Source: Moorella glycerini (GTDB lineage Bacteria > Bacillota > DSM-521 > Neomoorellales > Neomoorellaceae). Taken from it: a stretch of 64,000 nt of DNA. Location of the stretch: positions 186,001 through 250,000 of the forward strand of contig NZ_CP046244.1 of assembly GCF_009735625.1 (NCBI RefSeq), written 5' to 3'. The position numbers and the translations under genes are program-made. Positions 26,014-38,227 of this stretch are shown in pieces. The stretch's first letter is position 1, and the number at the start of each line of letters is the position of its first letter. Below the pieces are notes generated by a model. The model ran no database searches, was not told the DNA's origin, and saw only the letters and a list, made by a program, of their open reading frames with translations.

Positions 26014-26042
26014 AATATAAAAAGCTCCGGGATAACCCGGAG
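26014..26042 (-). terminator. Terminator of the IclR-headed catabolic operon
   Basis: A perfect 7-bp stem CTCCGGG/CCCGGAG with a 4-base loop is followed by CTTTTTATATTTT on the minus strand, just after the M24 gene stop. Confidence 0.88.
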
Positions 26043-26060: not shown

Positions 26061-27164
26061 TCATACCCGCACCAGTTCCCGCGGGTAATCCGTCAGTATT
26101 TCGTTCTTATCCTTGCTGATATAAATTACATCCGTCACCCGGGGACCGCCGATGCCGGGACGGTAAATGGTCGGCAGGAGCAAATCCACTACCATGCCGG
26201 CCTCAATTATTTCCGCCCGGCCCTTACCGATAATGGGGTAAAACTCCGACTGGCGCAGGCCCACCCCATAGCCGGCCACGTCCAGGTAGCTGTTGCCGTA
26301 GCCGGCGGCCTCAACCACCTCCCGGGCGGCGGCATCCACTTCTCCTGCTGCGGCCCCGGGCCTTAAGGCGGCTATGGCCCGGCCCTGGGCTTCCAGCAGG
26401 ACCTGATACACCCTTTCCTGTTCGGCCGGTATCTCACCCACGGCTACAGTCCGGCACATCTTGGCGCAGTAGCCTTCGCAGGTTGCTCCCAGGTGGATGA
26501 CTACTACTTCGCCAGGAGCAATCTTTTTATTGCTGGCACAGGGGTGGGTAAGGAGGGTACGTTCCCCCGATACTACCTGGGGCCGGAAGGAAGAACCGCC
26601 TGAACCCGCCTTCAGCATGGCGTATTCCGCCTCGGCCAGGATATCGAGTTCCGTCACCCCCGGCCGGACGCTCTTAATGGCCGCTGCCATGCCGCGGCAG
26701 GCGGCTGCCGCCGCCCGCCGCAGGAGATCCACTTCCGCTGGTTCTTTAATGGCTCGAATATGATAGAAGATATCGCTCGCCCCGATAAAATTGCTTTCCG
26801 GAAAAGCCTGGCGCAAGCCGTCGTAAAGGGCGAAGTCGACAAAATAGCGCTCAAACCCGATACGTGGCTCCTTCAGGCCGTAGGCCCTAATCCGTTCTAC
26901 AACCTTGCAGGCCAGGCTCTCCCGGGGGAAGAAATAGCCATAGGTGGTAAGCCCCGACTGTCGTTCCACGTAGCCTGCATCCAGCCAGAGGGTGACGGCG
27001 CAGGGTACACCCTCCCTGGGGATAAGCACGGCCAGGCACTCAATCTGGGTCAGGCCGGTGAAGTAGATCAGGTTTTCCCGGTTGACCACCAGGAGAAGGT
27101 CTAAATCCTTTTCCACCATTAATTGCCTGGCTCTGGCAAACCGGTTGGCAAAACGGGGCGCCAA
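26061..27164 (-). CDS. M24 (creatinase/aminopeptidase P-like) protein without metal ligands
   Basis: This 367-residue protein has the creatinase N-terminal domain (about 1-125) and a pita-bread C-terminal domain. None of the five metal ligands of M24 metallopeptidases is kept: the first Asp is His (VVIHLGATC), the second Asp is Lys (CAKMCRT), the HGIG histidine is Tyr (AGYGVGL), and the two Glu positions are Leu (VVDLLLP) and Thr (PRVTDV). Creatinase itself is metal-free, so a hydrolase or lyase acting on a small amidino or carboxyl compound is possible; a binding role is equally possible. TTG at 27164 has AAGGAG 8 bases upstream. It is the last gene of the catabolic operon. Confidence 0.8.
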   Translation of the reverse strand: MAPRFANRFARARQLMVEKDLDLLLVVNRENLIYFTGLTQIECLAVLIPREGVPCAVTLWLDAGYVERQSGLTTYGYFFPRESLACKVVERIRAYGLKEPRIGFERYFVDFALYDGLRQAFPESNFIGASDIFYHIRAIKEPAEVDLLRRAAAAACRGMAAAIKSVRPGVTELDILAEAEYAMLKAGSGGSSFRPQVVSGERTLLTHPCASNKKIAPGEVVVIHLGATCEGYCAKMCRTVAVGEIPAEQERVYQVLLEAQGRAIAALRPGAAAGEVDAAAREVVEAAGYGNSYLDVAGYGVGLRQSEFYPIIGKGRAEIIEAGMVVDLLLPTIYRPGIGGPRVTDVIYISKDKNEILTDYPRELVRV

Positions 27165-27189
27165 TGCTACCACTCCTTTTTTTACATCT

Positions 27190-28437
27190 TTAAAAGTCTT
27201 TAGGTTCCACCAGCAGGGAAACAATAACCCCCCCTACCAGGGACCAGAAGGGTGAACTGATCTTCAAGATGGTAATACCCGACATGGCGATTACCAGAGC
27301 AAAGAAGGCGCCGTAGCGGAACTTTTTGGAGGAAAAGGCCAGCTCAAATGCACTCAAAAGCACCCCGATCATGGCCAGGCCGGCCAGGAGGCTTACAAGT
27401 TGCGCTGGCAGGGCCTTGACAAAGGGCACTGCCACGCTGGCAAAGAGGCCAAAGGCGCCAAAGGTGATGCCGTTAACTATAGTCGCGGCGTAGCGGCCCG
27501 ATTTGTCAGGTCCTGCCTCTTCCGAGCTGCAGATTGCTGTCATGGGGCCGGCAATATTGGCGTTGTGGCCGCCGAAGAAGGAGGTTATTATGCCGCCGAT
27601 GCCACTGATGACAGTCATAGCGTTAATGGGTGCCTTGTATCCCTGGGCGGTCAGGACACCGTAGGCCTGGGCGTTTTCGGCGCCGATTACCAGTACCGCC
27701 AGGGGTATGGCAATGGCAAAGAAGGCTCCCGCGGAAAAGCCGGGCACGAAGAACTGCGGTAGTACCCAGGTTATTTTGACATCAGCAAACTTGAAGCCAC
27801 CTACCAACAAAGCTACAACTACGCCAACGACCAGGGACCAGAGAATAGGTGACACCTTTTTAGTCAGCCTCTGACCCAGGAAATAGCCTGCCAGGGCGGC
27901 GCCGGCTATAACCGGTGCTTGCTGGGTAGAGGTCACAATGCCCGTGCCGAACCTGATCATAGCCCCGGCGATCATGGCCATGACTATCGGCAACGGGATC
28001 CAGCGCATGGCCTTACCGATCAGACCGGAGACCCCCAGGAGCAGGACCAGGATGCCAGCGATCAGATAGGCACCCACGGCTTCGTTAAACGGAAACAGGG
28101 GTAAGGCCGAGGCCAGCATGACGGCGCCGGGAATGGACCAGGCCCCGTTAATGGGCATTTTGTAGTACAGGCCTAGAATGATACTGATGAGACCGCCAAA
28201 GAAATAAATTGAAAATAACCAGGATATGGTTTGAACATCCGTAAGTTTTCCATTCTGGGCAGCATTCATAACAATCAGGGCAGGCCCGGAACAACCGAAA
28301 ATGGTGGCCACTATTCCTGCCGTGATAGTGTTGGCGTTTAGTTTGCCCCAGAGATCACGCCAACCTTCACCAAATCCCGGGCCCTTTTCCCATATGGCTT
28401 CTTTGGGCTTTGATGACGTCTCGGTAGCTACGGACAT
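27190..28437 (-). CDS. BenE-like membrane permease
   Basis: This 415-residue protein has about 11-12 hydrophobic segments and motifs of the benzoate/proton symporter (BenE) and related NCS2-like fold (GAENAQAYGVLTAQGYKAP, FFGGHNANIAGPMTAIC). It probably imports an organic acid for the pathway encoded around it. An N-terminal hydrophilic stretch of about 30 residues precedes the first helix. ATG has AAAGGAGGT upstream. A strong hairpin separates it from the LarA-like gene, so expression within the operon may be uneven. Confidence 0.8.
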   Translation of the reverse strand: MSVATETSSKPKEAIWEKGPGFGEGWRDLWGKLNANTITAGIVATIFGCSGPALIVMNAAQNGKLTDVQTISWLFSIYFFGGLISIILGLYYKMPINGAWSIPGAVMLASALPLFPFNEAVGAYLIAGILVLLLGVSGLIGKAMRWIPLPIVMAMIAGAMIRFGTGIVTSTQQAPVIAGAALAGYFLGQRLTKKVSPILWSLVVGVVVALLVGGFKFADVKITWVLPQFFVPGFSAGAFFAIAIPLAVLVIGAENAQAYGVLTAQGYKAPINAMTVISGIGGIITSFFGGHNANIAGPMTAICSSEEAGPDKSGRYAATIVNGITFGAFGLFASVAVPFVKALPAQLVSLLAGLAMIGVLLSAFELAFSSKKFRYGAFFALVIAMSGITILKISSPFWSLVGGVIVSLLVEPKDF

Positions 28438-28475
28438 TGTAGTTTTACCTCCTTTAGAGAATTTTAATTAATTTT

Positions 28476-28516
28476 GGCCCCCTCCGGCTGTCCAGCCGGA
28501 GGGGGGCTGTTTTTTT
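28476..28516. terminator. Strong intergenic hairpin in the catabolic operon
   Basis: A 13-bp stem GCCCCCTCCGGCT/AGCCGGAGGGGG has a T-run on the plus-strand side only. Read on the operon strand it lacks a T tail, so there it is more likely an mRNA-end or processing hairpin; on the plus strand it would block antisense transcription. Confidence 0.6.
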
Positions 28517-29960
28517 AGCTGGCGGCTTTTCCGAGAACGCTCATGTCTATGCCCCGCTGCCGCAGCCACTTGGGTAAGAGTTCATTCTCTACTCGCTCGC
28601 TGACGGCCGGTGCTTTCTTTAGCAGCAGTTCGGCCAGGGGTTCGCTGACGTTGATACCGCCCATGGCGCCGTCAAAGATGAGGACCTTGCGGGTACCGGT
28701 AGTCTTATAGGCAAACTCCATGGCCGCTTCCGTTGTTTCGGCCACCACCGCATGCTTCAAATAGGTCAGGTTCTGGGGGTCACGGTTGAAGAGGTCCGCC
28801 TGCTCCTGGCCCACTACCACCGTGGGGATGTGCTCGCTGAAGAAGGCGCTGGGATAACCCGTCCAGGCGTAGTTGTGGACACACATCTTGATGGCCGGGT
28901 TCAGCGGGGGTATATCTTTCAGGAGCGGCCTTCCTGCCTTGCCGTAGAAGGCTTCCGTGTACCAGGTATAGGCCGGCAGGGGCAGGTCCAGGTCGTAGAG
29001 GTCGGTATTGGCCCCGGCAAAGTTGGCGTAAATGACCCCGGCCGAGAAGACATACACCACCGGGCAGGGGAAATCCAGGGCGGCAATGCACTCGTCGATC
29101 TCGCCGAAGAGGGTCATCATCTTACCGTAGTAACGGCAGCCGATCTGGGTCACCCGGTCGTTCAGGGCATAAAGGTCGCTGTCGGCGTCGACGCCGATGA
29201 TGCCGTTGGGCGCCACCGTCAAGAAAGAAGCAAAGGCAAACTTGCCCTGGACAAAGGGCGAGTCAAAGATAGCCCTGGCCGTAAAGTTGGCCGCCCGCGG
29301 CCCCAGGTTCTGGTGATAGGTGGACCGGGTCTCAATGCGGGCGTAGGACATGCCGAAGGGTTTCACGGCCCGGTCTACCTGGCGGTGGAAGTGGACCTCG
29401 CGCACGTCGCTGTTATGGGCATGGACAATCCAATCGGCGTCGTAAATCTTGCGGATGCCGTACAGCGTGCCTATCTCGGTTTCAATGGGTATCCCCTGGT
29501 CGATGGGCGCCACGCCGATGGCCTTGCCTTCAAAGTGTTTATCCAGGCCGTAGCGCTTGATATACTCTTCCGTCTCCCGGAAGCGCAGGCCCACCCCGGC
29601 CCGCAGGCGGATATTGTTACACCCCGTCCGGGCTTCGATGACGTCTTTCAAGGTCTTCAGCATCTCGGCGTAGGGCTCGCCGCCCAGGAGAGTGAAGCCG
29701 TGGTGGGAGGCCAGGATATTGACCGAGTGCTCCGGCTTGATCCTGCTCATGTCGATATTTTTGAGGGCTTCCTCCGTTGCCTTCCGGACGGCAGATACTC
29801 CCCCGGCGCCGGGATAAATTACTTCCGGCAGGTCGGGGAAAAGCTCTTTCAGTAAGACGGAGGTCATGCCCGGCAACTCGCTGACGCGAGTTTTAACCAG
29901 GGCGGGGTCAATACCATACTGGGATTTCCTCGGTGGTATAGGTGTAATGGGAGGACGCAT
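28515..29960 (-). CDS. LarA-type (DUF2088) protein, likely nickel-pincer nucleotide enzyme
   Basis: This 481-residue protein is unannotated at first sight but aligns by eye with lactate racemase LarA. The LarA His174, Lys184 and His200 (nickel ligand, cofactor-tethering lysine, nickel ligand) correspond to His190, Lys200 and His216 with identical spacing. The segments ETEEYIKRYG and AMEFAYKTTG...LIFDGAMG match LarA's STHEELVNKYG and C-terminal AMEKAYARE... regions. LarA His108, one of the two acid/base residues, appears replaced by Arg126 (GVGLRF), so simple lactate racemisation is unlikely. Neighbours suggest a 2-hydroxy or 2-oxo acid substrate. The comparison uses remembered LarA sequence. 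ATG has AAGGAGGG upstream. Confidence 0.6.
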   Translation of the reverse strand: MRPPITPIPPRKSQYGIDPALVKTRVSELPGMTSVLLKELFPDLPEVIYPGAGGVSAVRKATEEALKNIDMSRIKPEHSVNILASHHGFTLLGGEPYAEMLKTLKDVIEARTGCNNIRLRAGVGLRFRETEEYIKRYGLDKHFEGKAIGVAPIDQGIPIETEIGTLYGIRKIYDADWIVHAHNSDVREVHFHRQVDRAVKPFGMSYARIETRSTYHQNLGPRAANFTARAIFDSPFVQGKFAFASFLTVAPNGIIGVDADSDLYALNDRVTQIGCRYYGKMMTLFGEIDECIAALDFPCPVVYVFSAGVIYANFAGANTDLYDLDLPLPAYTWYTEAFYGKAGRPLLKDIPPLNPAIKMCVHNYAWTGYPSAFFSEHIPTVVVGQEQADLFNRDPQNLTYLKHAVVAETTEAAMEFAYKTTGTRKVLIFDGAMGGINVSEPLAELLLKKAPAVSERVENELLPKWLRQRGIDMSVLGKAAS

Positions 29961-30580
29961 CAGGATTCCCTCCTTCCCTGCAGGGGGGCTGCCACTACCC
30001 GGTCCAAAAGTTTGATGTCCTCGTCAAAGTAAAAGCCGCGGGTAGCATACTTGTGCTTGACTTCGTCCGGTATTTCCCACACCGTTACCGTCCGGCCGTA
30101 CCACTGCCAGCCGTCTTTAGGCGGTTCCGGTTTGATGCCGGCCGCTTCCAGGAGGCGCAGGATGGGCTGGATGCACTCCACCTTGCAGCCGGTACGGGCT
30201 CCCGTGAGGAAAGAAACCTCTTCCGGGGACCTCGCCCCCTGCAAAATGGCGGCGGCGACTTCTTCCGCCCGCGTGGCAGTGCAGTAGCAGATGATCTGCT
30301 CCGGGTTGAGCCGGGCGCGGCGGCAGATTTCTTCCACCCGGGCATAGTCAACGGCACTGACGTCGACTTTGACCACTACCGGTTGCTCCCGCTTTACCAT
30401 GGTAATGGCGTAGTCCGGGCAGCGCTGCTCGCAGGCGGCGCAGCCGCGGCAGCGTTCCGTGTCAACCACAGCCTTGTGGTTTTCTACTTTAATCGCCAGC
30501 ACCGGGCAGACCTTCTCGCAGGTTTTGCAGCCCCGGCACTTTTCGGCATCGACTGCCGCCAGTAAATTGACCACCTTCAA
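29960..30580 (-). CDS. Ferredoxin/BFD-like iron-sulfur protein
   Basis: This 206-residue protein has an N-terminal 2[4Fe-4S] ferredoxin domain (CRGCKTCEKVCP and CRGCAACEQRCP) and a bacterioferredoxin-associated [2Fe-2S] domain (CYCTATRAEEV, then TGCKVEC). The C-terminal ~50 residues are unassigned. It probably passes electrons in the pathway of this operon, for example to or from a redox step that precedes the hydratase. The stop/start contact with the LarA-like gene is one base, so the two are tightly coupled. The start is TTG behind AAGGAGGGG. Confidence 0.82.
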   Translation of the reverse strand: MKVVNLLAAVDAEKCRGCKTCEKVCPVLAIKVENHKAVVDTERCRGCAACEQRCPDYAITMVKREQPVVVKVDVSAVDYARVEEICRRARLNPEQIICYCTATRAEEVAAAILQGARSPEEVSFLTGARTGCKVECIQPILRLLEAAGIKPEPPKDGWQWYGRTVTVWEIPDEVKHKYATRGFYFDEDIKLLDRVVAAPLQGRRES

Positions 30581-30582
30581 GT

Positions 30583-31602
30583 TTAAACCCCTCCTTTCTT
30601 TTGTGCCAACTGGTAAGCAACATCAACAATCATGTCTTCCTGCCCGCCGACCATTCGCCTCCTTCCTAGTTCTACCAGGATATCCCGGGGGTCGAGGTTG
30701 AATTTCTCGGCCGCCCGGTAGGTATGCAAGAGGAAACTGGAGTAAACACCGGCATAGCCCAGCATCAGGGGTGCGTTGCGCACCACCTGGGGCCGGTGCA
30801 TGATGGGTTCGACGATATCTTCGGCCACATCCATTATCTTGTAGAAATCGACACCCGTCTGGTAGCCCAGCTTCTCCAGCACGCCTACCAGGGCCTCGGT
30901 CTGGGCGTTGCCGGCCCCGGCCCCTAAACCCCGGCAGGCACCGTCCAGGAAAGTCGCGCCGGCCTCTACCGCCGCCAGGGCGTTGGCCGTAGCCATGGTC
31001 AGGTTGTTGTGGGCATGGAACCCCACGGGTACTTTCACAGCTTCCACCACGGCCCCCACCCGGGCTTTGACGTCTTCCGGCAGCATGGCCCCGGCGGAAT
31101 CGGCTACATAGATAAAGTCCGCCCCGTATGATTCAAAGAGTCGGGCCTGCTCGACCACCTTTTCCGGCGGTGCCATGTGGCACATCATCAAGAAACCGAA
31201 GGCCTGCATCCCCAGCTTTTTGGCCATGCCGATGTGCTGCTCGCCAATATCGGCTTCGGTGACGTGGGTGGCCACCCTTACGGCCTTCGCGCCGCAATGA
31301 GCCGCCATTTCCAGGTCTTCCTGGGTGCCGATGCCCGGCAGGAGCAGGACTGTCAGGTTGCTTTTTTTAATGGCCCCGGCCGCCGCCTTGAGCATTTCTT
31401 CCTCGTTGAGCAACGCCCAGCCGTAGTTATAGGAGGAACCGGCCAGGCCATCGCCATGGGAAACTTCGATATATTCCACCCCGGCAGCGTCCAGGCCGCC
31501 GGCAATGGCGGCAATTTGTTCGGCCGTGAACTGGTGGCTGACGGCATGGCTGCCGTCGCGCAAGGTTGTATCGACCACGTGGATAAGCTTGGTGTTTTTC
31601 AT
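30583..31602 (-). CDS. mhpE: 4-hydroxy-2-oxovalerate aldolase
   Basis: The enzyme splits 4-hydroxy-2-oxovalerate into pyruvate and acetaldehyde and, in the family, channels acetaldehyde to the dehydrogenase encoded next to it. The 339-residue DRE-TIM metallolyase shows [16 protein letters not shown] at its N-terminus, the metal-binding HAHNN (about residue 198) and the C-terminal communication domain ([18 protein letters not shown]). Its start overlaps the dehydrogenase stop in ATGA. The length and motifs are normal. Confidence 0.95.
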
Positions 31603-32474
31603 GCTGCCACTTCCCCTGCTAAAATCTTTTGGGCCAGTTTTTCCGCTACGGCCACGGCGGCGGAGGTGATGATATCGAGATTGCCGGAGTACCTGGGCAG
31701 GAAATCGCCGGCACCCTCCACCTGGATGATTGTCGTTACCTTGTTCCCGTCCAGCAGGGGCGGCACCCGGAGCTGGTAGCCCGGTACGTAGCTCTGGATT
31801 TCCTTTACCATGGCCTCTACCGAGGCCCGGATGGCCCGCTCGTCCGGTTTTTCTACCTCAACGTAAATGGTATTGGTCATCATAATGGGCGGCTCGGCCG
31901 GGTTCAGGATAATAATGGCCTTGCCTTTTTGGGCTCCCCCGACAACGGTAAGAGCTTTAGCCGTCGTCTGGGTGAATTCATCGATGTTCTGGCGCGTGCC
32001 CGGGCCGGCGCTTTTGGAAGCAATACAGGCTACAATCTCGGCATACCTGGCTCCCGCCGCCCGGTTGATGGCGTGGACTATGGGCACCGTAGCCTGGCCG
32101 CCGCAGGTGACCATATTGAGATTGGGCTCAGCCTTGACCTGGTCCAGGTTAACACAGGGCACGACATAGGGGCCGACGGCGGCCGGCGTCAGGTCGATGG
32201 CGATTTTACCGGCCTCTTTTAAAAGCGGGGCGTGCTGCAGGTGGGGTTTGGCCCCGGTGGCGTCGAAGACTATTTTTATGTCTTTATCCTCCAGGACAGC
32301 CTGGACGCCTGCGGTAGAGGTCTTGATGCCTAGCCCGCGCGCTCGTTTGATGCCTTCGGATTCGATAATGCCGGTCATCAGGGCCATCTCCAGGTGCCGG
32401 CTGCGCAGGATCTTGTACATCAGGTCGGAACCGATATTCCCCGGGCCGATGACGGCCACTTTAACTTTATCCAC
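31599..32474 (-). CDS. mhpF: Acetaldehyde dehydrogenase (acylating)
   Basis: This enzyme converts acetaldehyde, CoA and NAD to acetyl-CoA. The 291 residues have the Rossmann motif [12 protein letters not shown], the catalytic Cys in [12 protein letters not shown] and the family-specific [15 protein letters not shown] stretch. It forms the DmpFG-type complex with the aldolase. The GTG at 32474 is chosen because AAAGGAG sits 8 bases upstream; the ATG seven codons earlier would bury that ribosome site inside the gene. Confidence 0.95.
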
Positions 32475-32538
32475 TGTCACATCTCCTTTTACCATTTATT
32501 CACGGATGGGCTTCGCCGGCCAGCAATAGCGCTCTATG

Positions 32539-33312
32539 CTATACAAATTTCAGGCTCAGGCTCCCCAGGCCGTAGAAGGATACGGTGAAGACATCGCCGG
32601 CGCCGGCGTTTTCGGCGGCGGTGACGGCGCCGGAGAGGATGATCTCCCCGGCTTCCAGGGCGATATCAAAGGTGGCCAGCTTGTTGGCCAGCCAGGCCAC
32701 GGCCGCCGCCGGGTGCCCCCAGACGGCGGCACCGGCGCCGGTACTCGCCACTTCCCCGTTCTTTTCCAGCACCATGCCGATGAGGCGCAGGTCCAGGTCT
32801 TTGATGGGCACCATACGGCTGCCCAGGACCAGGCGGGCGCTGGAGGCATTGTCGGCAATGGTATCCGGGAGCTTGATCTTCCAGTCGCGGATGCGGCTGT
32901 CGACAATCTCAAAGGCCGGCATAATGCCTTCCGTAGCCCGGTAAACGTCGGCAATGGTCACCCCCGGGCCCTTAAGGGTGTCCTTTAAAATAAAGGCCAG
33001 TTCCCCCTCCACCCGCGGCAAAAGAAGTTCCTCCCGCCGGCAAGGTTCTCCCTCCAGGAGCAGCATGTTGTCCAGCAGGTGGCCGTAGTCGGGTTCATTG
33101 ACCCCCAGCAGCTGCTGCATGGCCTTGCTGGTCAGGCCGATCTTTTTACCAATAACCTTGCTGCCCCGCCCTTTCTTCATCTCAATGCCGGCCAGCTGGA
33201 TGCGGTAGGCATCCTCTACCGTTAAATCCGGATAAGTAGTGGTCAGCGGTTCAATGGGCCGGCAGCTGGCTTCTGCGGCCAGGAGTTCAGCGGCAATGGC
33301 CTGGTAATCCAT
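32539..33312 (-). CDS. mhpD: 2-oxopent-4-enoate hydratase (MhpD/DmpE family)
   Basis: This 257-residue enzyme adds water to 2-hydroxypenta-2,4-dienoate to give 4-hydroxy-2-oxovalerate, feeding the aldolase downstream. Motifs include GKKIGLTSKAMQQLLGVNEPDYG and the metal-site EGELAFIL with a further Glu in MPAFEIVDSR. A close alternative is 4-oxalocrotonate decarboxylase of the same superfamily. ATG has AAGGAGGCC 6-10 bases upstream and overlaps the upstream MoCF-domain gene by 26 bases. Confidence 0.87.
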   Translation of the reverse strand: MDYQAIAAELLAAEASCRPIEPLTTTYPDLTVEDAYRIQLAGIEMKKGRGSKVIGKKIGLTSKAMQQLLGVNEPDYGHLLDNMLLLEGEPCRREELLLPRVEGELAFILKDTLKGPGVTIADVYRATEGIMPAFEIVDSRIRDWKIKLPDTIADNASSARLVLGSRMVPIKDLDLRLIGMVLEKNGEVASTGAGAAVWGHPAAAVAWLANKLATFDIALEAGEIILSGAVTAAENAGAGDVFTVSFYGLGSLSLKFV

Positions 33313-34207
33313 CTTCGTGGCCTCCTTCTTTCATTACGTTGCGCCAGCGTTCCCGCAGGGCGCCGGCTATATATTCTGCCAGGGCGCCTTTTTCCAGTCC
33401 CTGCTCCAGGCCGGCTAGCAGCCGGTCGCAGCCCAGCCGGGCTTCTTCATGGGGACCGGGCAGGGCCACCAGGCGGGCTATGCCCACCTGGCCCACGGCA
33501 ATGCGCACCCCTTCTTTATGATGGCGGTGATAATCAGGTTTAAACTTCAAGATCCAGGGAGTACAGGCCTCCGGGTCCAGGCGCAAGATGGCTTCAATGC
33601 TGAAGTCCTTGTCCTCGGCCCCGACGCCGCCGGTGGTGATCAGCAATCCATAACCTTCTTCCAGGGCGCCTTCCAGGCGGTTGGCCACCGCCACGGCGTC
33701 ATCCTCCAGGATCCCGCCGAAGCTCGTGCGGTAGCCTGCTTTTTCCAGGGCCGCTATAATATAAGGCGAATTGGTGTCTTTGATCTTCCCGGCTATAACT
33801 TCCGCTCCGGAAGCAAAGACCGCGGCCCGCCGGGCGACGGCCCGGCTGATACCCCGCGCCAGGGCGGCCGATTCCGCCAGTACCCGGGCCGCCGCCTCCG
33901 GCTCCAGGGCAATTACCCCCAGCACCCCTTCCGAGTGAACGGCGGCTCCCGGTTTTAAAGTTACCCCCGGCAAATCCGCCAGGCGCCTTAAGATTTCCTT
34001 CTCCTTGCCGGCTACTGCTTCCGCCCGCACCCTGCGCCGCAGGATATCAAAGGCCACCAGCCCCGGCCGGACGTCCACCACCATTACTTCCTGAGCTGGT
34101 AGTTCCATGGCGGCGGCTGCTGCCGCGGCCACCTGGCCCAGGTCGGCGGCGGTTAGTTCAATGTTATCGATCCAGAAGGTCGTTTTCTCCAGCAGGTCCC
34201 ATTCCAC
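33287..34207 (-). CDS. MoCF-type molybdopterin-binding domain protein
   Basis: This 306-residue protein has a C-terminal MoCF domain (about 140-290) as in MogA, MoaB and CinA: the motif LLITTGGVGAEDKDFS and a final RLVALPGPHEEA. The N-terminal ~120 residues are unassigned. Such domains bind molybdopterin or a related ligand. It is odd to find it in a meta-pathway operon with no molybdenum enzyme nearby, and it may bind a different nucleotide-like ligand. The GTG at 34207 with AAGGGGGG upstream is used rather than an outer ATG, which would overlap the next gene. Confidence 0.75.
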   Translation of the reverse strand: MEWDLLEKTTFWIDNIELTAADLGQVAAAAAAAMELPAQEVMVVDVRPGLVAFDILRRRVRAEAVAGKEKEILRRLADLPGVTLKPGAAVHSEGVLGVIALEPEAAARVLAESAALARGISRAVARRAAVFASGAEVIAGKIKDTNSPYIIAALEKAGYRTSFGGILEDDAVAVANRLEGALEEGYGLLITTGGVGAEDKDFSIEAILRLDPEACTPWILKFKPDYHRHHKEGVRIAVGQVGIARLVALPGPHEEARLGCDRLLAGLEQGLEKGALAEYIAGALRERWRNVMKEGGHEDGLPGHCR

Positions 34208-34322
34208 GGGGTAATCCCCCCTTCTCATAGTATTTGACCCGGCCCCGCTTGCCATATGATGGCAACAGGATAGTGTATAATTTGCTTGAGTTGGAATGTA
34301 CAGGAAAATGTTATCCTTCCGT

Positions 34323-35135
34323 TTATACAGAAATCCCTTCCACATCCAGGCTTAAATCCAGCAGCGGCGCATCGATAATGGCCCGGCCGACATCGACGAT
34401 GTCCGCCCCGGCGGCAATTACCTCCTCCAGGCCTGCCGGCGTGACGCCGCCGGCAAAGGCGAGTTTTACTTTTTCCCGCCAGCCGCCTTGCTGCGCTGCT
34501 GTCACCACTGTTGCCAGGTCCTCCAGAAGGCCGGTATCTACCATGATAATTCCTGCCCCGGCCCTTACTGCGGCCTCCGCTTCACCGGCTATGGGCCGGC
34601 CCTCCCCGCGGACCTGCACGGCGATCACCCGCTCCTGGTCATAGGCGCGCGCCCGGCTCACCGCCGGCTCGACGCCTCCTAAAAGGCGGACGTAATTTTT
34701 ATCCAGGTAGATAAAGGGGCGTTCGGTAATGCGGATACCGGCACCGCCGGTGGCGATGGCCCGGCGCAACTCGTCCCTTATTTCCGGGGCTACCTTTTTC
34801 CACGCGCCGCAGACGACTTTTATCCGTCCCCCGGCCTGCCGGACAAAATTAGCCGCCGCCGTGGCCACCCCGGAGGGCTTACCTATAACTCCCAGGAGCA
34901 TCTCTTCGGCCCGGATAATCGCCGGGGCCTCGCCCCTGGCCCGGAAAAGGCAGCTTCCCGTTTCCAGGGGATAACCCTCGGGGGCTGCCCAGGTTACTTC
35001 CAGCCCCAGTTCACCTGCTACCCGGGTTAACCTGGCTGCCCCGGAGAATATTCCCCTTTCCCGGGCGGTGATGGCAAAGGCCAGGATATGCCCCGCCAGG
35101 GGGGCAAAGAGATATTCTCTAAGCTCCACTGGCAT
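34323..35135 (-). CDS. Divergent QPRTase/ModD-like protein
   Basis: The sequence follows the quinolinate phosphoribosyltransferase (NadC) and ModD fold: an N-terminal region, LLGGVEPAVSRARAYD, IIMVDTG and the closing block FAGGVTPAGLEEVIAAGADIVDVG. The NadC signature RKT-PG is not evident, and the catalytic EVEV glutamate position reads QVRG. It is therefore unlikely to be a normal NadC. It may act on another pyridine or phosphoribosyl substrate. The start ATG at 35135 overlaps the IclR gene by 17 bases, so the two are coupled. Confidence 0.7.
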   Translation of the reverse strand: MPVELREYLFAPLAGHILAFAITARERGIFSGAARLTRVAGELGLEVTWAAPEGYPLETGSCLFRARGEAPAIIRAEEMLLGVIGKPSGVATAAANFVRQAGGRIKVVCGAWKKVAPEIRDELRRAIATGGAGIRITERPFIYLDKNYVRLLGGVEPAVSRARAYDQERVIAVQVRGEGRPIAGEAEAAVRAGAGIIMVDTGLLEDLATVVTAAQQGGWREKVKLAFAGGVTPAGLEEVIAAGADIVDVGRAIIDAPLLDLSLDVEGISV

Positions 35136-35928
35136 CACTTCCTGCCGCAGGCCGGTAACCAAGGCCGGCCGAAATCTCCGCTGCCGTCCGGGTGACCAGT
35201 TCTACGGCCAGCTGGAACCTCTCCCCTTCCAACCGTGCCACCGGGCCTGCAACGCTAATCGCGGCACATACTTTGCCGTTATGGTCCCTTATCGGAGCTG
35301 CCACGCAGCGGAGACTATCCATAATTTCCTCATTATCTACGGCATACCCTGCCGCCCGGATTTTTTCCAGTTCCGCCTCCAGCCGGCGCGGGTCGGTGAT
35401 GGTATGACTGGTATAGCGGGCCAGGCCTTTGGTCGCGATGATCCGTTTCACCTCGCTGGGGTGCAGGTAGGCCAGCAGTACCTTACCCACCCCGGTACAG
35501 TGGGCCGGCAGGCGCATGCCGACCTGGGAAACAATCCGCAGGGACTGCTGGCTTTCTCGCTTGTCAATATACAGTACTTCCCCCTTATCGAGGACCACCA
35601 GGTGGACTGTCTCCTCCATTTCATTAACCAGCTGTTGAATAAAGGGTGCGGCAACTTTACGCACATCCCAGTTGGCAGCAACAACGTTGCCGATTTCAAA
35701 AAGCCGTACCCCCAGGCGGTAGCGGCCGTCGAAGGGCGACTGCTCCAGATATCCGAAATCCCGCAGGGTAGCCAGCAACCCATGAAGGGTGCTTTTCGGC
35801 AAATCCATGGCGCGAGCTATTTCCGCCAGCGACATATCGCGCTGGTTGGCGGCCAGCAGGTCCAGGATCATTAACGCCTTGGCCACCGAGCGAATCCGCG
35901 AAGCATTATTCTGGTCCTTTATTGCCAT
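35119..35928 (-). CDS. IclR-family transcription regulator
   Basis: This 269-residue protein has an N-terminal winged helix (about 10-75: MSLAEIARAMDLPKSTLHGLLATL) and a C-terminal GAF-like effector domain with the family's GRYRLGVRLFEIG and AISVAGPVARL motifs. It heads the operon and should control it in response to a small acid, as IclR proteins do for aromatic and hydroxy-acid catabolism. ATG has GGAGGCTGGC upstream. Confidence 0.92.
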   Translation of the reverse strand: MAIKDQNNASRIRSVAKALMILDLLAANQRDMSLAEIARAMDLPKSTLHGLLATLRDFGYLEQSPFDGRYRLGVRLFEIGNVVAANWDVRKVAAPFIQQLVNEMEETVHLVVLDKGEVLYIDKRESQQSLRIVSQVGMRLPAHCTGVGKVLLAYLHPSEVKRIIATKGLARYTSHTITDPRRLEAELEKIRAAGYAVDNEEIMDSLRCVAAPIRDHNGKVCAAISVAGPVARLEGERFQLAVELVTRTAAEISAGLGYRPAAGSDASGA

Positions 35929-37227: not shown

Positions 37228-37956
37228 TTAAAAGGGCGGTACCAGGGGCAGCCGCCTTTTGTGGGCACTGCAGGCGGCCATGGACTCTATTTTCTCTTTC
37301 GCCGCCGGCGGCGCTTCCCCCGTCAGGAGATAATGGTCCAGGACTTCATAGGTGAGGCCCATCTCACCCTCATCCGTCTGGCCGGCCCACAGGCCCGCTG
37401 AAGGGGCTTTAGTAATAATCCTTTCCGGCAGTCTTAAGTAACGGGCCAGCTCCCTTACCTGGGACTTCACCAGGTTGGCCAGGGGCAGCAGGTCCACACC
37501 GCCGTCGCCATACTTGGTAAAGTACCCCACTGCCAGCTCACTTCTATTGCCGGTGCCAATGACCAGGTAATTGCGCTCGTTGGCATGGAAATAGAGGGTC
37601 ATCATCCTGAGGCGCGGCTTTAAGTTGGCCAGGGCCAGGCTCCGCCGGCCGGCTGCGTAGGGTTTTCCCGTCAGGAGCAGTACCAGCTGGTCGTAGACGC
37701 CATCCAGTACCACCTCTAACACCGGTAAATCCAGGTGCCGGGCAACCAGCCGGGCATCCCCGGCATCAGCCGGGTCGCTGTGGCAGGGCAGGATCAACCC
37801 CAGGCAATTTTCCGGGAAAGCCCGCCGGCAGAGGGCCGCCACTACGGCGGAGTCAATACCGCCACTTAAACCCACGACCGCACCCCGGGCACCGGCCTTA
37901 TGCACCTCCTCCTGCAACCAGGCTACCAGTTCCGTTACCATTTTGGCCGCATCCAT
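37228..37956 (-). CDS. nadE: NAD+ synthase, ammonia-dependent
   Basis: This enzyme amidates nicotinic acid adenine dinucleotide (NaAD) to NAD. The 242 residues have the PP-loop LSGGIDSAVVAAL, the KPRLRMMTLYFHAN segment, GTGNRSELAVGY and GLWAGQTDEGEMGL. No glutaminase domain is fused, so ammonia is the nitrogen donor. ATG has AGGAGG 7 bases upstream. It is next to a divergent protease gene and 2 kb from the LarA-containing operon; LarA-type cofactors also derive from NaAD, but the link is only positional. Confidence 0.94.
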   Translation of the reverse strand: MDAAKMVTELVAWLQEEVHKAGARGAVVGLSGGIDSAVVAALCRRAFPENCLGLILPCHSDPADAGDARLVARHLDLPVLEVVLDGVYDQLVLLLTGKPYAAGRRSLALANLKPRLRMMTLYFHANERNYLVIGTGNRSELAVGYFTKYGDGGVDLLPLANLVKSQVRELARYLRLPERIITKAPSAGLWAGQTDEGEMGLTYEVLDHYLLTGEAPPAAKEKIESMAACSAHKRRLPLVPPF

Positions 37957-38227
37957 ATTTTTTACCTCCTGGGCCGCTAAACCGGCTCCAACCACAGGCC
38001 GGTAGCAGCAGATTTTAGCCGCCGGCTAAGAGCCTTTCCCGCTGCTACGCCCCTTTGCTGCTTGTGACAGTGCCCCATTGCACTGCCAGAAACACCGGGT
38101 GACCGCACCGGACGACCGGCACGAGCTAAAAGCCCAAGCTGCTTACTTCCATTTTCGACGTAGAGACGCCAATTCCTGCCGCAGTTCATGAGCACCGGAA
38201 TGACCGGCAAGGGCCGGTATAAAGATA
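37957..38227 (-). other. Possible structured leader upstream of nadE
   Basis: On the minus strand this 270-base GC-rich segment has no real gene but contains nested complementary arms: GTAGCAGC pairs with GCTGCTAC around an inner TTAGCC/GGCTAA hairpin (37998-38048). It ends close to the nadE ribosome site. It does not match a riboswitch class I can name. Confidence 0.35.

Follow-up and report, generated by a model that had tools for sequence, protein, structure and literature searches.

A conserved Moorella glycerini gene run around a LarA-fold protein, and a proposed oxygen-free route for 2-furoate

We analysed a stretch of 64,000 nucleotides from Moorella glycerini (contig NZ_CP046244.1; C1:186001-250000 of a 3.56 Mb genome), hereafter the window, and studied a run of ten genes within it. 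All ten open reading frames (ORFs) are encoded on the minus strand, between 35928 and 26061, and their ends overlap or are separated by short gaps. With moderate confidence, we read this run as an oxygen-free catabolic operon for 2-furoate, which would be opened by a 481-residue protein (X481) and would feed pyruvate and acetyl-CoA. The reading draws on the gene content of the run, its conservation across genomes, the predicted fold of X481, and the genes that lie near X481 in relatives.

Gene content and conservation of the run

The run starts with an IclR-family regulator (35119..35928; PF01614/PF09339), followed by a QPRTase-like protein (QPRT; 34323..35162; PF02749/PF01729) and a MoCF-domain protein with a conserved N-terminal part (MoCF; 33287..34345; PF00994). 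Three enzymes come next, namely a 2-oxopent-4-enoate hydratase-like protein of the FAA family (32539..33312), an acylating acetaldehyde dehydrogenase (31599..32495), and a 4-hydroxy-2-oxovalerate aldolase (30583..31602). The remaining genes encode a ferredoxin/BFD protein with Fer4 and Fer2_BFD domains (29960..30580), X481 (28515..29960), a BenE-like permease (27190..28437), and an M24/creatinase-like protein (26061..27224; PF00557/PF01321), for which we propose no role.

The acetaldehyde dehydrogenase and the aldolase scored above their equivalog cut-offs (TIGR03215, 458.6 bits for a cut-off of 282.25; TIGR03217, 539 for 286), and the permease scored above the TIGR00843 cut-off (245.7 for 203.4). 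The hydratase reached 316.9 bits with TIGR03220, short of the equivalog cut-off of 408.8, though this was its best NCBIfam match. Among the matches listed from the Pfam and NCBIfam scans of the ten proteins, which comprise the best 25 families for two of them, no oxygenase family exceeded its cut-off and no ring-cleaving dioxygenase was found; the match to the benzoyl-CoA epoxidase BoxA was confined to the ferredoxin part, with 37.9 of 459.2 bits. Furoyl-CoA synthetase and furoyl-CoA dehydrogenase were likewise not among the ten in the family scans, no genome-wide search having been made for them. An earlier sequence-only reading had described an IclR-headed, one-strand run of these families without an oxygenase, and the ORF positions and family scans agree with it.

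A total of 121 X481 loci were confirmed in genome contigs, and the best 80, with 67-97% identity, were kept. The frequencies of the cluster genes refer to the 46 of these 80 loci with at least 6 kb upstream and at least 3.5 kb downstream (the well-covered loci), which are not phylogenetically independent. One representative of each neighbour cluster was scanned against the families, and the names of the other members rest on BLAST grouping. As a result, the ferredoxin/BFD protein was found in 46/46 well-covered loci, the hydratase and MoCF in 45 each, QPRT in 44, the IclR match in 41, and the aldolase and the acetaldehyde dehydrogenase in 37 each. QPRT, MoCF, the hydratase, and the ferredoxin/BFD protein occur all together in 43 of the 46. 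The permease (28/46) and the M24 protein (24/46) are accessory rather than core. The conserved co-occurrence of ten genes, put forward as a check in the sequence-only reading, was thus found for the core, with these two kept less often; the same reading would have been abandoned had the neighbours parted company in other genomes, and they are kept together across relatives.

X481 is present in 14 of the 22 genomes of its class; at the level of the phylum, 26 of the 398 genomes sampled carry it. Within the best 80 of the 121 loci, many belong to Bacillota, and others are titled Deltaproteobacteria, Desulfovibrio, Myxococcales, Chloroflexi, or Breznakiella, the last being a spirochaete. The carriers include Flavonifractor plautii and Oscillibacter, both of gut origin. 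In the 398-genome sample, MoCF was present in all 26 genomes with X481 and in 2 of the 372 without it (Fisher 9e-39). In one of these two (G386:C63), the contig stops inside the aldolase gene, ahead of the expected place of X481; in the other (G069:C55), the contig is 4.3 kb long and holds QPRT next to a MoCF gene that is broken. Separately, MoCF and the hydratase of genome G008 (L122:7686-8605) are both truncated and run into each other, and the other cluster genes there appear complete or nearly so.

Of the 46 well-covered loci, nine lack the aldolase or the acetaldehyde dehydrogenase, and six of these nine have a nearby gene for an oxidoreductase of the indolepyruvate or pyruvate type, compared with one of the 37 others. 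This fits an oxidation in which 4-hydroxy-2-oxovalerate becomes 3-hydroxybutyryl-CoA, or simply the oxidation of pyruvate, the aldolase then being encoded elsewhere.

Predicted fold, probable cofactor and proposed partner proteins of X481

X481 matched no Pfam or NCBIfam family, including Lar_N, and no PDB sequence with an E-value better than 0.09. A Lar_N search of the window's genome returned four other proteins, X481 not among them. A first structure model, built from 12 sequences (alignment A1), was weak (predicted local distance difference test, pLDDT, 68.9), and just two PDB entries matched it with E<0.001, both of them malate racemases. The replacement model was built from 74 sequences, namely the window and 73 of the 80 loci (alignment A2; L039, L046, L049, L053, L058, L107, and L112 omitted), and reached a pLDDT of 85.5 and a predicted template modelling score (pTM) of 0.88. 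All nine Foldseek matches with E<0.001 were LarA-family structures. A second structure alignment returned eleven lactate racemase, malate racemase, or LarA-like entries together with 4nar, a Thermotoga protein without a functional title, with Z-scores of 15.0-18.1, and the next fold scored 7.2. By its predicted structure, X481 has the LarA fold. The claim that it is simply a LarA by sequence was dropped on the family, profile, and PDB sequence comparisons; the label LarA-like given by the sequence-only reading is therefore retained for the fold and not for the sequence family.

We searched the 129 invariant positions of X481 for the LarA spacing of 10 and 16 residues, and a single His-Lys-His triple, H190-K200-H216, has it. 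The four Lar_N proteins of the window's genome share this spacing, judging from a count made by eye on their alignment. By spacing, H190 would correspond to LarA His174, and we take K184 and H200 of LarA to be its cofactor lysine and nickel histidine. In LarA, a thioamide bond anchors the cofactor and the nickel site includes a histidine as its last ligand, with His108 and His174 serving as acid and base (PMC12611868, excerpt). We consider it very likely that X481 binds the nickel-pincer nucleotide (NPN), probably with the cofactor on Lys200 and the nickel held by His216. In a weak alignment, the LarA His108 position pairs with R126 of X481, and this apparent change would fit a different chemistry. 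Lar_N-type proteins, of which one was scanned, also lie near four X481 clusters (L053:15241-16533, L056:5315-6703, L090:6200-7498, and L091:7123-8418) and, as aligned, have neither the His174 nor the Lys position.

NPN is made from intermediates of the NAD pathway. Genes for its supply were found near X481 in 26 of the 80 loci, with LarB in 22, LarC in 22, and LarE in 14. The scanned representatives matched Ni_insertion (LarC), an AIR-carboxylase domain (LarB), and an NAD-synthase domain (LarE); beside these matches, the names LarB and LarE are partly our presumption. LarC occurs in 25 of the 26 genomes that carry X481 and in 200 of the 372 that lack it (p 4e-6); in at least nine of the 26, no more than 20 kb separates LarC from X481. 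LarB, LarC, and LarE are all present in the window's genome, the latter two side by side and LarB elsewhere, and none of the three adjoins the cluster. In genome G009, a 50-residue fragment with 78% identity to the X481 N-terminus (C2:803156-803305; L019) lies about 60 bases from a LarC gene (C2:801958-803097), and a full X481 is encoded elsewhere. Additionally, DUF3842 proteins, one of them scanned, are near seven of the 80 clusters (L064, L067, L068, L071, L077, L084, and L109), four of which also have Lar genes.

The partner proteins were examined in conserved-column alignments of 61, 60, 78, 60, and 38 rows, length-filtered, with one sequence per locus and the window included. The cysteines of the ferredoxin/BFD protein are conserved across its 78 rows, and we propose this protein as the natural electron donor to X481. 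QPRT aligns along QPRTase structures and scores below the curated cut-offs of both NadC (109.2 of 198.4 bits) and ModD (42.4 of 178.85 bits). MoCF keeps a GGVGAExKD-type motif; judging from its alignment, its real start is probably at residue 40, near 34228, because conservation sets in at about residue 40-47. QPRT and MoCF would make or adapt the cofactor of X481. This role is our best guess for the pair because NPN is a pyridinium mononucleotide (PMC11796402, excerpt). Action of QPRT on the catabolic substrate was rejected, a furan having no ring nitrogen.

Other features were noted around the run. A pattern scan placed a terminator-like hairpin on the minus strand 3' of the last gene (26025..26042), a weak call given 25 such patterns for 11.5 expected. 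A perfect-looking, G+C-rich hairpin of 12 pairs lies between X481 and the permease gene (28478-28505), with a T run on its plus-strand side. Upstream of the IclR gene, an ORF at 37228-37995 was judged by eye to be NAD synthetase-like, and both M. stamsii and M. sulfitireducens have a similar ORF close to their clusters (neighbour cluster C39).

Substrate, proposed route and alternatives

2-Furoic acid is a product of furfural and hydroxymethylfurfural (HMF) from heated food and plant biomass. X481 loci carry genes for an HmfF-type UbiD, an enzyme that makes 2-furoate, and for alcohol dehydrogenase and aldehyde oxidoreductase. Three UbiD-type decarboxylases from different lineages were compared with the PDB, and all were closest to 6h6v, the crystallised PtHmfF, with 638, 527, and 561 bits versus 226, 203, and 187 for the next family. 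These UbiDs are HmfF-type and clear of the other UbiD families. In the order of genome G352 (113 genomes), HmfF with 60-80% identity was found in eight genomes, and X481 was present in all eight versus 5 of the 105 others (p 2.5e-9). In seven of the eight, HmfF and X481 share a contig with a distance of 11-19 kb between them; in the eighth, they are on separate contigs. Five weaker UbiD matches (39-43% identity) were scored as not HmfF; one such genome, G458, has X481.

The UbiD of genome G484 is identical over 448 residues to 6h6v, and therefore this is the genome of the PtHmfF source organism or one very near it. Its genes run in the order IclR, ferredoxin/BFD, X481, QPRT, hydratase, acetaldehyde dehydrogenase, aldolase, iron-containing alcohol dehydrogenase, and MoCF, followed by a ferredoxin, an aldehyde oxidoreductase (AOR), an iron-containing alcohol dehydrogenase, several ORFs, a further AOR, a further iron-containing alcohol dehydrogenase, and HmfF. 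The two alcohol dehydrogenase/AOR sets with HmfF would match the needs of two conversions, from furfuryl alcohol to furoate and from HMF through furan-2,5-dicarboxylic acid (FDCA) to furoate. The Pelotomaculum thermopropionicum enzyme is reported to run its decarboxylation backwards as well, forming FDCA by carboxylation of 2-furoic acid (PMC6644310, excerpt), and a tungsten aldehyde oxidoreductase is reported to oxidise furfural and HMF, giving furoic acid from furfural with ferredoxin as acceptor (PMC9424855, excerpt). A furan-2-carboxylate is, in our judgement, the highly probable substrate class, and 2-furoate is the likely substrate because HmfF, alcohol dehydrogenase, and aldehyde oxidoreductase genes accompany X481. 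Benzoate was rejected: it rests on the name BenE alone, a gene present in 28 of 46 loci, and no benzoyl-CoA reductase was identified among the conserved neighbour clusters, that family not having been searched for.

In the proposed route, furoate would enter through the BenE-like permease; in relatives, it would probably also be made on site from furfuryl alcohol or furfural by alcohol dehydrogenase and aldehyde oxidoreductase, and from HMF or FDCA through the HmfF decarboxylase. The ferredoxin/BFD protein would pass electrons to X481, whose NPN cofactor would deliver hydride to furan C5, giving dihydrofuroate. A C4 proton would then be lost and the ring oxygen would leave as the enolate of an alpha-keto acid, yielding 2-hydroxypenta-2,4-dienoate. 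The hydratase, aldolase, and acetaldehyde dehydrogenase would convert this dienoate to pyruvate, acetyl-CoA, and NADH, for a net reaction of furoate + 2 H2O = pyruvate + acetate. The route would be redox-neutral overall because the two electrons come back as NADH.

The formulas balance by our arithmetic, since furoic acid, C5H4O3, plus 2[H] gives C5H6O3, which is 2-hydroxypenta-2,4-dienoic acid. This acid is the enol of 2-oxopent-4-enoate, the substrate of the hydratase, and cleavage of the O1-C5 bond of furoate with two electrons yields the dienoate structure by our own chemistry. X481 as a mere hydratase or isomerase was rejected, as it would leave the two electrons unsupplied. We consider it reasonably likely that X481, together with the ferredoxin/BFD protein, performs the reductive ring opening.

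Several observations weigh against this reading. The hhalign comparison of X481 with LarA gave a probability of 1% (E 0.057), although the short alignment sits on the corresponding N-terminal region of LarA. LarC was not found in G012 (L008, L053), a 99%-complete genome with X481 and MoCF. The carriers include loci of Aneurinibacillus and Alicyclobacillus, which are aerobic genera, and neither hydratase nor aldolase nor dehydrogenase was seen within the stretch covered at L102, the locus of Alicyclobacillus. UbiD-type decarboxylases occur in only 9 of the 80 kept loci within the stretch covered. No HmfF, AOR, or alcohol dehydrogenase adjoins the window's own cluster; the nearest UbiD of that genome, about 100 kb off, shares 44% identity with the M. 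stamsii HmfF and is closer to 6h6v (314 bits) than to other solved families (168). A different route, through 5-oxo-4,5-dihydrofuroate, is moreover cited for Desulfovibrio furfuralis (PMC11384913, excerpt).

That last route would assign the first step to a molybdenum hydroxylase making 5-oxo-4,5-dihydrofuroate and leave a minor, redox-neutral step to X481. Xanthine-dehydrogenase-type subunits are found in 5 of the 80 loci, but the other 75 show no such large subunit within the stretch covered, and the route does not require the hydratase and the 4-hydroxy-2-oxovalerate aldolase that are conserved here; we regard it as very improbable. The same gene layout could also serve a different substrate that leads to the same dienoate, either a furan acid related to furoate or some other heteroaromatic acid with a five-membered ring, for example pyrrole-2-carboxylate. 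By our own chemistry, reduction of pyrrole-2-carboxylate followed by hydrolysis could give 2-oxopent-4-enoate, and within the stretch covered, UbiD is absent from 71 of the 80 kept loci. However, the three UbiDs compared with the PDB are HmfF-type (527-638 bits to 6h6v) and far from the pyrrole-2-carboxylate decarboxylase PA0254 (4ip2, about 117 bits), and the alcohol dehydrogenase/AOR pairs fit furfural-type aldehydes, which makes this alternative quite unlikely.

X481 might instead be an ordinary NPN racemase or epimerase that sets the stereochemistry of a 2-hydroxy acid on its way into or out of the pathway, with an unlinked enzyme opening the ring. The LarA fold of the X481 model agrees with this, and the known enzymes of the LarA superfamily are racemases or epimerases (PMC11770544, excerpt). 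Nevertheless, a racemase would not need the ferredoxin/BFD protein that stands beside X481 in every well-covered locus, the His108 position seems to be Arg126 in the weak alignment, and no other conserved cluster gene would supply the ring-opening reduction. We consider the racemase explanation unlikely.

Relation to known systems and significance

Compared with the LarA/DUF2088 superfamily of NPN enzymes (5huq, 8ezh, and 9q3k), X481 shares the modelled fold, the His-Lys-His spacing, and the presence of cofactor genes in the genome, often nearby. It differs in lacking a Lar_N match, in its 12-16% identity to most LarA structures, in the probable Arg at the first catalytic His, as the weak alignment suggests, and in its association with a ferredoxin/BFD protein and with a catabolic gene cluster. 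The hydratase, acylating acetaldehyde dehydrogenase, and 4-hydroxy-2-oxovalerate aldolase correspond to those of the lower meta-cleavage pathway (DmpE/F/G), whereas the cluster has no ring-cleaving dioxygenase and its dienoate must arise otherwise. The sequence-only reading had joined a LarA-like enzyme to this lower pathway by an oxygen-independent route, and this central idea is supported by the conservation in several phyla, the modelled fold, and the nearby cofactor genes.

QPRT and MoCF have domain matches to the QPRTase/ModD and MogA/MoeA/CinA (MoCF) families, whereas both fall below the curated cut-offs, and MoCF has an extra conserved N-terminal part and tracks X481. The aerobic furfural/HMF pathway (hmfABCDE, hmfFGH) shares an HmfF-type decarboxylase and has 2-furoate as the corresponding hub of our proposal; it runs via furoyl-CoA and 2-oxoglutarate, whereas the proposed route is reductive and would end in pyruvate and acetyl-CoA (PMC6604932, excerpt, for the aerobic pathway).

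A literature search restricted to open-licence papers found no description of a furoate pathway of this kind, an absence that is weak evidence. Brune et al. reportedly published growth of a strict anaerobe on furfural in 1983. In 2018, a review still anticipated that anaerobes have furan routes yet to be discovered (PMC6604932, excerpt). The cluster puts named genes on this old question of anaerobic furan breakdown and would reduce it to one testable enzyme. On the practical side, furfural and HMF are inhibitors of microbes in hydrolysates of biomass and are also present in cooked food, and the carriers include Flavonifractor plautii and Oscillibacter. We suggest, tentatively and with some doubt, that X481 could be the first net-reducing nickel-pincer enzyme, dearomatising and opening a furan with a dedicated ferredoxin/BFD protein, and that the QPRT-MoCF pair could build a new nicotinate-derived variant of the cofactor. 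If true, the enzyme and this pair would together represent a ring-opening chemistry of a new class in biology, one that has spread horizontally among anaerobes of gut, sediment, and hot environments.

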